Positions 2,110 through 6,375 of a stretch of DNA of 64,000 bases are shown here, piece by piece. Within the stretch, counting starts at the first letter, position 1. The number at the start of each line of letters is the position of its first letter. The notes beneath the pieces are model-generated. The model saw only the letters and a program-made list of their open reading frames with translations, was not told where the DNA came from and did not search any database. The stretch is from Rhodobacterales bacterium HKCCE4037 (GTDB taxonomy: Bacteria > Pseudomonadota > Alphaproteobacteria > Rhodobacterales > Rhodobacteraceae): the NCBI GenBank assembly GCA_015689645.1, contig WVSM01000002.1:124001-188000 (forward strand), given 5' to 3'. Both the position numbers and the translations under genes were made by a program.

Positions 2110-2196
2110 GCCCAGGTGGCGGAATTGGTAGACGCGCCAGCTTCAGGTGCTGGTGTCTGTATGGACGTGGAGGTTCGAGTCCTCTCCTGGGCACCA
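2110..2196 (+). tRNA. tRNA-Leu (anticodon CAG)
   Basis: An 87-nt cloverleaf with a 7-bp acceptor stem (GCCCAGG/CCTGGGC), an anticodon stem CCAGC/GCTGG around the loop TTCAGGT (anticodon CAG, reading CUG), a long class II variable arm and the T-loop GGTTCGAGTCC. The 3' CCA is encoded in the gene (2194-2196). It starts 42 bp after the tamB stop. Confidence 0.97.
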
Positions 2197-2327: not shown

Positions 2328-3584
2328 TCAGGCGAGTCGCAAGCGTCGTGAAGACAGGCTCGCCAGAGCAAGCATGGTGCCCGCGATGGCGAGACACGCC
2401 GCAAGTCCACCGATCTGATAGCTCAAACCGGACAGAAGCGTGCCGATCAGACGCCCCGCCGCGTTCGCCATGTAGTAGAACCCGACATCCATCGTCACCC
2501 GCTCACCGCGCGTGAAAGCGAGGATGAGGTAGGAATGCAGGGCGGAATTCAGCGCGAATACGGCACCGAATGCGAGCAAGCCCGCGACGATCGTTAGCGT
2601 GAGCCAAGGTGCCGGATCACCCACGACGAACACCAGCGCGGCCAAAGCGAACGGCACGATGGACAGCACACCGGACCAGAACGGTGCAACTCCGATCAAG
2701 TCGGCAAGGGGCCGCCGCTTGGCGCCGAGAAGGCGCGGCGCGGACGCCTGAACCGCCCCGTAAAGAATCACCCAGATCGCCATGAACGTGCCGATGGTGA
2801 AGAACGCCGCACGGTTCCCCTCGATGCTGCCATCCGAAAGGACCGCGTAAAAATAGATCGGGATTCCGACGACAAACCAGACATCCCGCGCTCCGAAAAG
2901 AAAGACCCGAGCCGTGCTGAGCCAGTTCACGTTGGGGTCTTTCGAGAAAACCTCGCGAAACTTGGCCTCCTTCCGGCCGGCGGGCAGGCCGGCGGGCATT
3001 TTCAGGACGATCGCAAGGAGAATGCAGGCAAGGACAACTGCCATACCAAGGACGGAGGGCACGAATCCGACCAGCGCAAGGGCAGCCGCGCCGACCAGAA
3101 AACCTAAGCCCTTCACCGTATTCTTCGACCCGGTCAGGATCGCAACCCAGCGAAAAAGACCATCGCCCTCGCTCGGCGCCAGCAGCTTGACGGCCGATTT
3201 CGAGGACATCTTTGCAAGGTCCTTGGCAACCCCCGAGAGGCCCTGCACGCACATCACGAACACGACCGACGCCGACAAACCCCATGCCGGGTCAAGTTGC
3301 GACAGGGCGATCAACGCCACGATCTGCAACCCAAGGCCCGCGTAAAGCGTGGACGTCAGCCCGAACCGCGCGGCGATCCAGCCCGCGGAGAGGTTGGTGA
3401 CGATTCCCGCGATCTCGTAGAGGACGAACAGGTAGGCCAGCTGAACCGGCGAAAAACCGAGCGTGTGGAAATGCAGGAGCACCAGCATGCGCAGCGCGCC
3501 ATCGGTCAGCATGAACGCCCAGTAGGCTGCAGTGACCGCGATGTAGGCGGACAGGCCTTCCGGGCGATCCGGCGTCGTGGTCAC
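2328..3584 (-). CDS. arsJ: Organoarsenical efflux MFS transporter ArsJ
   Basis: A 418-residue major facilitator protein with about 12 hydrophobic segments, recognised as ArsJ. Family knowledge: ArsJ exports 1-arseno-3-phosphoglycerate, made when a dedicated glyceraldehyde-3-phosphate dehydrogenase uses arsenate in place of phosphate; the product breaks down outside the cell, so arsenate is removed. Characteristic stretches include [15 protein letters not shown] near residue 25 and the charged loop [17 protein letters not shown] around 115-131. The start overlaps the stop of the upstream GAPDH gene by 4 bp (ATGA), so the two are translationally coupled. No arsR, arsC or acr3 is nearby. The partner gene makes the ArsJ call strong. 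Confidence 0.9.
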
Positions 3585-4579
3585 AGCGACTCACCCACCA
3601 TCATGGCAACATCTACCAGCCTGTGGGCATATCCCATCTCGTTATCGTACCAGGCGTAAACCTTCACCTGCGTGCCATTGATGACCATTGTCGAAGGCGC
3701 GTCCACGATGCTCGACCGTGTGTCGTTCGTGTAATCGGTGCTGACCAAGGGCCGGGTTTCATAGCCTAGTATGCCTTTCAGGCTCGATTCCGAGGCCTTG
3801 CGGAACATTTCGTTCACCTCCTCGGCAGTCGTCTCGCGCTCGACCTCGAAAACGCAATCCGTCAGCGAGGCGTTGAGAAGTGGCACCCGCACGGCGTGAC
3901 CGTTCAGCCGGCCTTTCAGCTCGGGATAGATCAGCGTGATCGCGGTGGCCGAACCGGTTGTCGTCGGGATCAGCGAATTCAGCGCCGACCGTGCTCGGCG
4001 CAGGTCTTTCGCAGGGCGGTCGACGATGGTCTGCGTGTTGGTGACATCATGGATCGTGGTGATCGACCCATGGCGGATACCCAGCCCCTCGTGGATGACT
4101 TTCACCACCGGTGCGAGGCAATTGGTCGTGCAGGAGGCGGCGGTGACGATGCGATGCGTGTCGGGCTGATAGGTTTCATCGTTCACGCCCATGACGATAT
4201 TCGCGGTCGGACCGTCCTTGACCGGCGCGGAGACGACGACCTTTTTCACACCGGCTTCAAAATAGGGCTCCAGCTTGGCCTCGGTCTTGAACGCGCCTGT
4301 GCAGTCGATCACCACGTCGACCCCCTCAAGCGGGAGTTTCGCCGGATCCCGTTCGTTATGGAGCGGCAGGCGCGTGCCGTCGATCGAAATTGCGCCTTCA
4401 AGCGCTTCGAACTGCGCCGGCCAGCGGCCGTGGACCGTGTCGAATTCCAGAAGATGCGCGTGCATCTCCGCGTCGCCCACTGCGTCATTCAGACACGCGA
4501 TCTGCGCACCGGTTTCGAGAAGCGGGCGGAGGGCCAGCTTCCCGATCCGACCCAGTCCATTCAACGCATAGGTAGTCAT
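3581..4579 (-). CDS. ArsJ-associated glyceraldehyde-3-phosphate dehydrogenase
   Basis: Phosphorylating GAPDH family (about 332 residues), with the N-terminal Rossmann motif NGLGRIGK, the catalytic loop SCTTN (Cys about residue 150) followed by the His-containing THRxx/TIHDVTN region, and the C-terminal WYDNEMGY signature. Pairing with arsJ implies that it forms 1-arseno-3-phosphoglycerate from glyceraldehyde 3-phosphate, arsenate and NAD for export by ArsJ; a general glycolytic role cannot be excluded. An in-frame ATG at 4585 would add two residues, but a GGGGG ribosome-binding stretch (4586-4590) directly abuts it and sits 6 nt from the ATG at 4579, so 4579 is preferred. It is first gene of the GAPDH-arsJ operon, with a Pho box 57-74 bp upstream. 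Confidence 0.9.
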
Positions 4580-4635
4580 CGGCATCCCCCAAGACGTGTT
4601 GCAGCCCGGTTAGAAAAGGCGTGTGCCCCCTGCAA

Positions 4636-4653
4636 GTGACAGTTCCATGACAG
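4636..4653 (-). promoter_or_regulatory. Pho box (PhoB site) before the GAPDH-arsJ operon
   Basis: On the minus strand the sequence is CTGTCATGGAACTGTCAC: two heptamers, CTGTCAT and CTGTCAC, separated by 4 nt. This fits the enterobacterial PhoB consensus at all 14 repeat positions (the last base may be C or T). It lies 57 bp upstream of the GAPDH start and also 48 bp upstream of the likely start of the divergent ABC permease gene, so it could serve either. Binding itself is inferred. Confidence 0.75.
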
Positions 4654-4662
4654 AATGCGGGG

Positions 4663-6375
4663 TTGCAATGCGTCCTGATCCCGAGAAAAAAACCAAGGAT
4701 TATGAGCAAGCGATACGGCGCCTATTCCACGATGCGATTTACCAGCCTGTCCTGGCTGATCGCGGGGATGTGCCTGCTGCCCATGGTGGCCGCCGTCATC
4801 GCGGCGCTTTCCGGCGGGTTCGAGACCCTCGCCGGGCTGTGGAACAGCGTTCTTGGCGAGTTCATCCTGGCAACCTTCTGGCTGATCCTGCTGGTCGGCA
4901 CGGGCACCGCCATCATCGGGACCGGGTCGGCTTGGCTGGTCACGGCAACGCGGTTCCCGGGGCGTCGCCTTCTGGAGATAGCGCTGGCGCTTCCTCTCGC
5001 GTTTCCGGCCTATGTTCTGGCCTATGCCTATACCGATTTCCTCGACCATCCGGGCTGGGTCCAGACTACCCTGCGCGACCTGACGGGATGGGGCCCACGG
5101 GACTATTGGTTCCCGGAAATCCGCTCCCTCGGCGGGGCGGCGGCCATGTTGACGTTGGTGCTTTATCCGTATGTCTACCTGCTGGCGCGGGCCGCGTTCC
5201 TGCAACAATCTGCAACGGCCTACATCGCCGCGCGGACCCTTGGCCAAACTGCCTGGCAGGCATTCTTCCGAGTCAGCCTGCCCATCGCACGGCCGGCCAT
5301 CGCGGGTGGCGTCCTTCTTGCCCTGATGGAAACCTTGGCCGATTACGGCACCGTGTCCTACTTCGGCGTCCGTACCTTCGCGACCGGCATCTACCAGGCG
5401 TGGTATTCGTTCTTCGACCGGGGCGCGGCGGCCCAACTGGCGCTGTGCCTTCTGGTCATTGCCCTTGTGATCGCCTCTCTGGAGCGGAGGCAGAGGCGCG
5501 ACCAACGTCATCACGGGGCCGGACGTCGATTCGAGGCGATGCAGGTCGTCGACCTGACCGGATGGCGCGCGATTGGGGCAATTGTCTTCTGCGGCCTCCC
5601 GGTGCTTCTGGGCTTCATCCTGCCCGTGATCCTGCTGCTGGACCTCGGGTGGGAGTCCTTCGGCAACATGCTGACGCCCCGATATCTGGATTTCCTGCAG
5701 AACTCCGTCGTGCTTGCCATGGTCGCGGCAGCCCTGACCGTTTCCTGCGCCGTTGTTCTGGGCTTCAACGCGCGGCTGCATCCGACGCCGGCGATGAAAA
5801 CCTCGATCCGGATCGCCAGCCTTGGCTACGCCGTGCCTGGTGGCGTCATTGCGGTTGGTCTGCTGGTGCCATTCGCCACCTTCGACAACGTGCTCGACCG
5901 TTTCATGGAGGCGCGGTTCGGTATCGACACTGGCCTGCTCATCACCGGCTCGATCTGGTTGCTTGTCGCGGCCTATGCCGTGCGGTTCATGGCCGCCGCG
6001 CTGAGTGCCTATGATGCGGGTTTGAGTACCATCAACCCCAACGTGGACGCGGTCGCCCGGACCCTTGGACATCGGCCAAGGTCGATGTTGCGCGGAGTGC
6101 ACCTGCCGATCCTGCGCCCGTCGATCCTGACCGGCCTGCTGATCGTGTTCGTCGACGTGATGAAGGAGCTTCCCGCCACGCTCATCATGCGGCCATTCAA
6201 TTACGATACGCTGGCCGTGCAGGCGCACCGGCTCGCATCCGACGAACGGTTGGGCGAGGCGGCGGTGCCATCGCTGGTCATCGCCGCCGTTGGGTTGCTG
6301 CCGGTGATCCTGCTCTGTCTGGGGCTTGGTCGGGAACGCGACGCAAAACGTTTCGTCCCCGAACCCGCAGCCTGA
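4663..6375 (+). CDS. Fused two-domain ABC transporter permease, iron(III)/FbpB type
   Basis: About 570 residues with roughly 12 membrane segments in two homologous halves. Each half carries an EAA-type loop that docks the ATPase: AARTLGQTAWQAFF..LP in the first and VARTLGHRPRSMLR..LP in the second. This is the architecture of FbpB/SfuB-type ferric iron permeases and of related 2-aminoethylphosphonate permeases. No ATPase or substrate-binding protein gene adjoins it: the GAPDH operon is divergent and leuC convergent, only 4 bp away. Alternative in-frame starts are ATG 4702 and ATG 4732; none has an ideal ribosome-binding site (AAGGA lies only 2 nt before 4702). Substrate is unknown; the nearby Pho box leaves phosphonate-type substrates open. 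Confidence 0.82.
   Translation: MQCVLIPRKKPRIMSKRYGAYSTMRFTSLSWLIAGMCLLPMVAAVIAALSGGFETLAGLWNSVLGEFILATFWLILLVGTGTAIIGTGSAWLVTATRFPGRRLLEIALALPLAFPAYVLAYAYTDFLDHPGWVQTTLRDLTGWGPRDYWFPEIRSLGGAAAMLTLVLYPYVYLLARAAFLQQSATAYIAARTLGQTAWQAFFRVSLPIARPAIAGGVLLALMETLADYGTVSYFGVRTFATGIYQAWYSFFDRGAAAQLALCLLVIALVIASLERRQRRDQRHHGAGRRFEAMQVVDLTGWRAIGAIVFCGLPVLLGFILPVILLLDLGWESFGNMLTPRYLDFLQNSVVLAMVAAALTVSCAVVLGFNARLHPTPAMKTSIRIASLGYAVPGGVIAVGLLVPFATFDNVLDRFMEARFGIDTGLLITGSIWLLVAAYAVRFMAAALSAYDAGLSTINPNVDAVARTLGHRPRSMLRGVHLPILRPSILTGLLIVFVDVMKELPATLIMRPFNYDTLAVQAHRLASDERLGEAAVPSLVIAAVGLLPVILLCLGLGRERDAKRFVPEPAA

Follow-up and report, generated by a model that had tools for sequence, protein, structure and literature searches.

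A candidate Pho box before gap-arsJ, a predicted arsenate-export operon without an adjacent arsR, in a Rhodobacteraceae bacterium

Background

The var operon of Vibrio cholerae, arsR-varG(GAPDH)-varH-arsJ, deals with arsenate by complexing it with a glycolytic intermediate, and its transporter is ArsJ (PMC9601151); the terms PhoB, phosphate starvation and low phosphate do not occur in that paper. For a cyanobacterium, induction of GAPDH and ArsJ by phosphate limitation has already been reported, as has, for Halomonas, control of an arsenite oxidase by PhoB. Arsenate enters mainly via the phosphate transporter that is induced by phosphate deprivation (PMC4284471). In Nodularia, phosphate limitation brings log2 increases of up to 2.41 for GAPDH and up to 1.20 for ArsJ transcripts; the authors found no P-box and little change in most arsenate-related genes (PMC9846622); Nodularia arsR, sphX, gap and mfs(arsJ) form one cluster (PMC3610870). 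In Prochlorococcus, arsR, mfs and gap1 are among the phosphorus-acquisition genes (PMC10504305); PstS-Gap3-MFS occurs with arsB/arsC in cyanobacteria (PMC4284471), and Crocosphaera arsB is induced by phosphate starvation (reported in PMC4284471). In Halomonas HAL1, PhoBR controls the arsenite oxidase genes aioBA, with an 18-bp Pho box (PMC4563254), and in Agrobacterium PhoB1 acts at the aioXSR promoter (review PMC7533571).

The locus analysed here lies in a 64,000-nucleotide stretch of DNA (termed here the window) from Rhodobacterales bacterium HKCCE4037, which has a 3.8-Mb genome and is related to the marine roseobacters. Like the var operon, the locus encodes an ArsJ-type GAPDH together with ArsJ, to which the complexing of arsenate with a glycolytic intermediate is likewise ascribed--the function of the pair being taken from the work on ArsJ and GAPDH (PMC9601151); unlike the window, the var operon has a single promoter, on which ArsR acts as repressor and arsenate as inducer. 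The gap-mfs(arsJ) clusters in which a phosphate-binding protein gene stands beside gap, as in one relative surveyed below (L317), differ from the window in belonging to Cyanobacteria and, in Nodularia, in retaining arsR. Halomonas HAL1 and Agrobacterium resemble what is proposed here in that PhoB acts on arsenic genes, and differ in that these genes serve arsenite oxidation, not arsenate export; moreover, aioBA of Halomonas HAL1 is arsenite-induced (PMC4563254). The arsRC-gap-arsJ operons of other Rhodobacteraceae contain the same pair (at the same locus in the five nearest relatives) and often a Pho box, and differ from the window in having an ArsR-ArsC fusion gene (HTH_20 + LMWPc) with a palindrome over its start. 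No report of a Pho box at gap-arsJ was found in the literature, which is weak evidence, subscription journals lying mostly outside the coverage.

Sample and methods

A search of 394 genomes from the family gave ArsJ-model matches in 268 (251 over the cut-off). Loci were taken from 144 of these 268 genomes, best scores first, and the 80 best-ranked named loci among 586 candidates were added. In all, 233 loci plus the window were entered, some loci twice, of which 207, later 206, were non-redundant. The rows dropped were 23 near-copies (>99% alike), three with a partial gap match (L077, L136 and L220), one without arsJ (L306) and one (L264) in which an adjacent arsRC is cut by the contig end. 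Upstream sequence was limited to 238, 542 and 401 bases at L112, L266 and L267, respectively, and four arsRC-type loci had too little of it for the promoter scan.

In relatives, a site was called a Pho box when it scored over a 1% shuffle threshold; this threshold is arbitrary, and recognisable boxes at L129 and L156, which differ from the plain consensus at 1 and 3 positions, respectively, fall below it. Two earlier counts were set aside. The absence of any Pho box with at most 3 mismatches from 172 ArsR-adjacent loci was misleading because the scanned stretches lay inside arsRC, and scanning upstream of arsRC changed the count. Similarly, a leave-one-out matrix derived from the ars promoters themselves passed 20/28 arsR-less and 5/172 ArsR-adjacent loci at the 1% level, the latter again having been scanned inside arsRC.

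Results and discussion

The gap-arsJ locus

The features of the locus are given in Table 1. Adjacent genes pass the curated cut-offs of both the ArsJ and the ArsJ-associated GAPDH models, as a GAPDH-ArsJ pair is defined, and the gap stop and arsJ start overlap by 4 bp (GTGA). Residues 151-155 of the GAPDH are SCTTN, which is taken here to be the GAPDH catalytic motif. The true start of gap may be a second in-frame ATG at 4579; the alignments of most relatives start at residue 2 or 3. The interval 3581-4653, given for the operon in the earlier note, covers gap and the box, and arsJ falls outside it. Beyond the divergent permease gene, the next gene is leuC, on the other strand; the permease is thus flanked by gap and leuC only, and has neither a binding-protein gene nor an ATPase gene next to it.

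Table 1. Coordinates and properties of the features of the gap-arsJ locus, in window positions
Feature	Position	Strand	Remarks
tRNA-Leu	2110-2196		beyond arsJ
arsJ	2328..3584	-	MFS exporter, 418 aa, GTG start; NF033734 534.3 bits (cut-off 400)
gap	3581..4585	-	ArsJ-associated GAPDH, 334 aa; NF033735 555.7 bits (cut-off 450)
Divergent intergenic region	4586..4701	.	116 bp; Pho box present, ArsR-type palindrome of relatives absent
Pho box (candidate)	4636..4653	-	CTGTCATGGAACTGTCAC; two 7-bp direct repeats, 4-bp spacer; 50 bp before first gap ATG
Fused ABC permease	4702..6375	+	BPD_transp_1; divergent, outside the operon

The Pho box before gap

At the level of sequence, the candidate Pho box before gap-arsJ is confirmed. 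It has 1 mismatch to CTGTCATNNNNCTGTCAT, and its single mismatch to CTGTCAT-N4-CTGTCAT is a change of the final T to C. The PhoB consensus allows C at the final repeat position. Hence the claim that the box matches this consensus at all fixed repeat positions is right, because the consensus permits the one substitution present. The spacer, GGAA, is half A+T rather than AAAA, and no clear -10 hexamer could be made out by eye where one would normally follow the box.

A loose match to the plain consensus is uninformative because, when as many as 3 mismatches are tolerated, the window holds 4 matches against 3.3 expected; the box is the only one of these 4 with fewer than 3 mismatches. Therefore a matrix was built from promoters independent of the gap-arsJ locus, namely from pst promoters only: in each of 21 genomes (the bacterium's own and those of 20 relatives), the best site ahead of pstC was taken, with variants of the E. 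coli Pho-box consensus as seeds. Each of the 21 pst promoters had a site that passed the cut, the typical form being (C/T)TGTCAT(G/A)AAACTGT(T/C)AC, the bacterium's own being GTGTCATAAAACTGTTAC. By this pst-trained matrix, the box before gap scores 23.2 and is the top site of the window on either strand, the next scoring 11.7; when the intergenic region was dinucleotide-shuffled 20,000 times and scanned on both strands, no shuffle reached 23.2 (best, 19.9).

Over the 3.8-Mb genome, the pst-like pattern has 12 matches with at most 3 mismatches, where the reversed control has 2, and with 1 mismatch the pattern finds only the pst promoter and the box in the window. For the plain consensus the corresponding figures are 165 and 59, with two sites at 1 mismatch. 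The other of these two (contig C31, 198038-198055) is not among the pst-like matches; it precedes a gene for a 468-aa, exported-looking, acidic protein without a Pfam or NCBIfam match. The genome has its own pst-phoB operon with its own Pho box: PhoB (335.9 bits; cut-off 296.2) is at C1:411061 and PstC (285.6 bits; cut-off 196.45) at C1:407264, and the direct-repeat layout of the window's box--two 7-bp repeats with a 4-bp spacer--is the same as in that pst promoter.

Pho boxes and ArsR-type palindromes in relatives

Within the family, gap usually has directly upstream of it a gene of about 280 codons, termed here arsRC, whose product (in the two examined with Pfam) fuses an ArsR-like HTH_20 domain to a low-molecular-weight phosphatase domain (LMWPc), whose fold is that of one class of arsenate reductase. 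A palindrome, TTCCATAATTCATGAAATATGGAA, extends from about -18 over the arsRC start codon and occurs with at most 7 mismatches in 159/167 cases; from its place and symmetry, it is probably the ArsR operator. The earlier note was therefore correct in calling ArsR-type control the usual arrangement: arsRC usually precedes gap-arsJ, with this palindrome over its start.

Pho boxes occur with both arrangements. Upstream of arsRC, a box lies on the coding strand in 45/167 promoters and on the other strand in 10/167; 32 of the 45 start at -52 to -54. Before arsRC at L154 stands CTGTCATGGAAGTGTCAC, a single base from the window's box. At loci with no ArsR in the stretch covered, the window included, a box points toward gap in 17/27 and lies on the other strand in 1/27. 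The same kind of site thus stands before arsJ operons of relatives, as the earlier note had proposed to check, in 16/26 arsR-less loci even when the window is set aside; ten of the 27 have no box over the threshold, one of them (L317) lying behind pstS. Where ArsR is placed otherwise, 1/8 loci has a box, and of 1391 control tiles taken from farther upstream, most of them in coding sequence to judge by position, 6 and 15 pass on the two strands. In other alphaproteobacterial families (29 loci, within 210 bp of gap), a box is found in 4/9 arsR-less loci (at one of these, L440, the opposite strand passes as well) and in 0/20 with ArsR, a weak contrast because, when ArsR is present, the scanned stretch often lies inside the upstream gene. 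Many ArsR-type relatives also carry a Pho box, so the connection to phosphate extends beyond the loci that lack ArsR.

ArsR in the window and elsewhere in the genome

That no arsR lies nearby was borne out: an ArsR-profile search of the window's ORFs of at least 60 aa gave 0 matches, and all 11 HTH_5 matches in the genome are on contigs other than the window's. An ArsR site controlling the operon, which the earlier note had named as evidence against itself, was likewise looked for in the form of the palindrome seen at 159/167 arsRC genes, and is absent before gap, where the best match has 12 mismatches of 24. Nor does the palindrome (at most 7 mismatches) occur within 60 bp of gap in any of the 27 arsR-less promoters; over 250 bp it occurs in 1/28 (L120, 6 mismatches; a count in which L264 is still included).

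An intact arsRC is present on another contig (C32:233277-234113), alone as far as that contig was read. Its promoter contains a perfect palindrome, TTCCATAATTCATGAATTATGGAA, and a Pho box of its own, CTGTCACCAAACCTTCAC, scoring 18.2. Because this arsRC is closer to those of other lineages (up to 73% identity) than to those of the window's sister loci (59-65%), it is apparently a separate copy and not the window copy relocated. No ACR3 match was found in the genome. Near full-length arsRC matches elsewhere in the genome were found for 6 of 19 arsR-less genomes searched (this one included), and in three of the six the match runs through a stop, as expected of two adjacent genes.

The C32 gene gives rise to an alternative, that its product or another ArsR--the HTH_5 matches offering candidates--still places gap-arsJ under arsenic control, the Pho box being minor or idle. 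This appears unlikely: the palindrome that is perfect at the C32 arsRC is, at best, half mismatched at the gap promoter and, within 60 bp of gap, is missing from all 27 arsR-less promoters.

History of the locus

By path length in a tree of gap plus ArsJ, the five rows nearest to the window are L241, L251, L253, L172 and L225; a set of six rows that holds the window, presumably together with these five, has 99% local support. Among the loci searched, the divergent permease occurs only in these five relatives and in L238, a more extended piece of the L172 genome. In all five, arsRC lies between the permease and gap: L241, L251, L253 and L172 have the permease, a box at -53, the palindrome and arsRC in the same place, and L225 has the permease, palindrome and arsRC and no box. 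From these layouts it follows that the window is the same locus without arsRC and the palindrome and with the box. Hence the window's lineage apparently lost arsRC and the palindrome and kept the Pho box. Three other loci look like intermediates in which gap directly follows a Pho box and a palindrome-like relic: L120 and L128 (6 and 8 mismatches) and L086, where the reading was by eye.

These layouts also bear on the permease, which was the first guess as the reason for the box and was dropped. On that account, the box would serve the divergent permease (perhaps, as a guess, for phosphonate or iron uptake), with gap-arsJ a bystander. The box is 48 bases from the permease ATG, and the permease is weakly similar to 2-aminoethylphosphonate permeases (PhnU2, 77 bits, far below the cut-off of 593); against this, the box is oriented toward gap, four sisters have it at -53 from arsRC, and among the loci searched the permease is confined to five relatives and is found at 0/16 other boxed arsR-less loci within the stretches covered, which makes this account very unlikely. 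Scarcely credible is a chance 18-mer before an operon that is constitutive or otherwise controlled: sites with at most 3 mismatches are as common in the window as chance predicts, and inert, mostly intragenic PhoB sites are common in E. coli (PMC10294691), but the score, position and orientation of the box, and its recurrence in relatives, speak against coincidence.

Across the family, the arsR-less state requires 23 changes on the best tree (FastTree; 54/203 inner branches well supported), which implies many losses or gains of ArsR. An association of ArsR loss with box presence on the tree did not reach significance: a Fisher test of 17/27 against 45/167 gives p = 0.00055 and ignores kinship, and kinship-aware sign tests over 15 independent pairs gave a median p of 0.18 (first classification) and of 0.34 (better classification), neither significant.

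A proposed mechanism

The reading preferred here is that gap-arsJ is an arsenate-export operon activated by phosphorylated PhoB, with a promoter descended from a dual Pho box/ArsR promoter; from the sequence comparisons above, this is considered probable. The dual promoter, consisting of Pho box and ArsR palindrome, would have driven arsRC-gap-arsJ; arsRC and the palindrome would then have been lost, leaving the Pho box. In dual promoters, ArsR would restrain the operon until arsenic appears; the promoter in the window seems to have no recognisable restraint. When phosphate is scarce, PhoB would become phosphorylated, bind the box and activate gap-arsJ; the GAPDH would make 1-arseno-3-phosphoglycerate, which ArsJ would export. 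The same scarcity would induce the high-affinity Pst transporter, which carries arsenate in. Because Pst is induced under scarcity and admits arsenate, the exporter would be made together with the importer, without arsenic being sensed. Thus gap-arsJ seems to be turned on by phosphate shortage and not by arsenic sensing, and the series of relatives suggests that the arsenic sensor was lost here and the phosphate switch stayed; phosphate control 'instead of' arsenic control, as the earlier note put it, would fit this reading.

In low-phosphate water, the phosphate importer is arsenate's door. Tying a detoxification operon to the importer's regulator would be a form of feed-forward control, in which protection precedes the felt poison, and the series of relatives--ArsR only, ArsR plus Pho, Pho only--offers a test bed for the takeover of an operon by a regulon. 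Belief and doubt are evenly balanced on a broader proposal: that Alphaproteobacteria repeatedly rewire arsenate export from arsenic sensing to the sensing of phosphate hunger, with the dual promoter as a stepping stone and loss of arsRC yielding a purely PhoB-driven, anticipatory exporter.

Phosphate-related genes beside gap-arsJ operons of relatives

At L317 (Rhodobacteraceae bacterium SB2), pstS immediately precedes gap-arsJ and shares its strand (features at 3835-4842 and from 5004 onward), and two overlapping Pho-box matches (13.2 and 12.2) precede pstS; this arrangement may be another way of placing gap-arsJ under phosphate control. At L223, a phoB gene (4189-4869, minus strand), 72% identical to that of the window's genome, lies about 135 bp upstream of arsRC-gap-arsJ in the same direction. 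Relatives of pstS (44-45% identical) stand beside arsRC-type operons at L308 (2922-3956) and L158 (4440-4997), and at L308 a strong Pho box (20.8) is directed at the divergent pstS. At the arsR-less locus L207, a strong Pho box (19.9) lies about -102 upstream of gap, on the other strand and pointing away.
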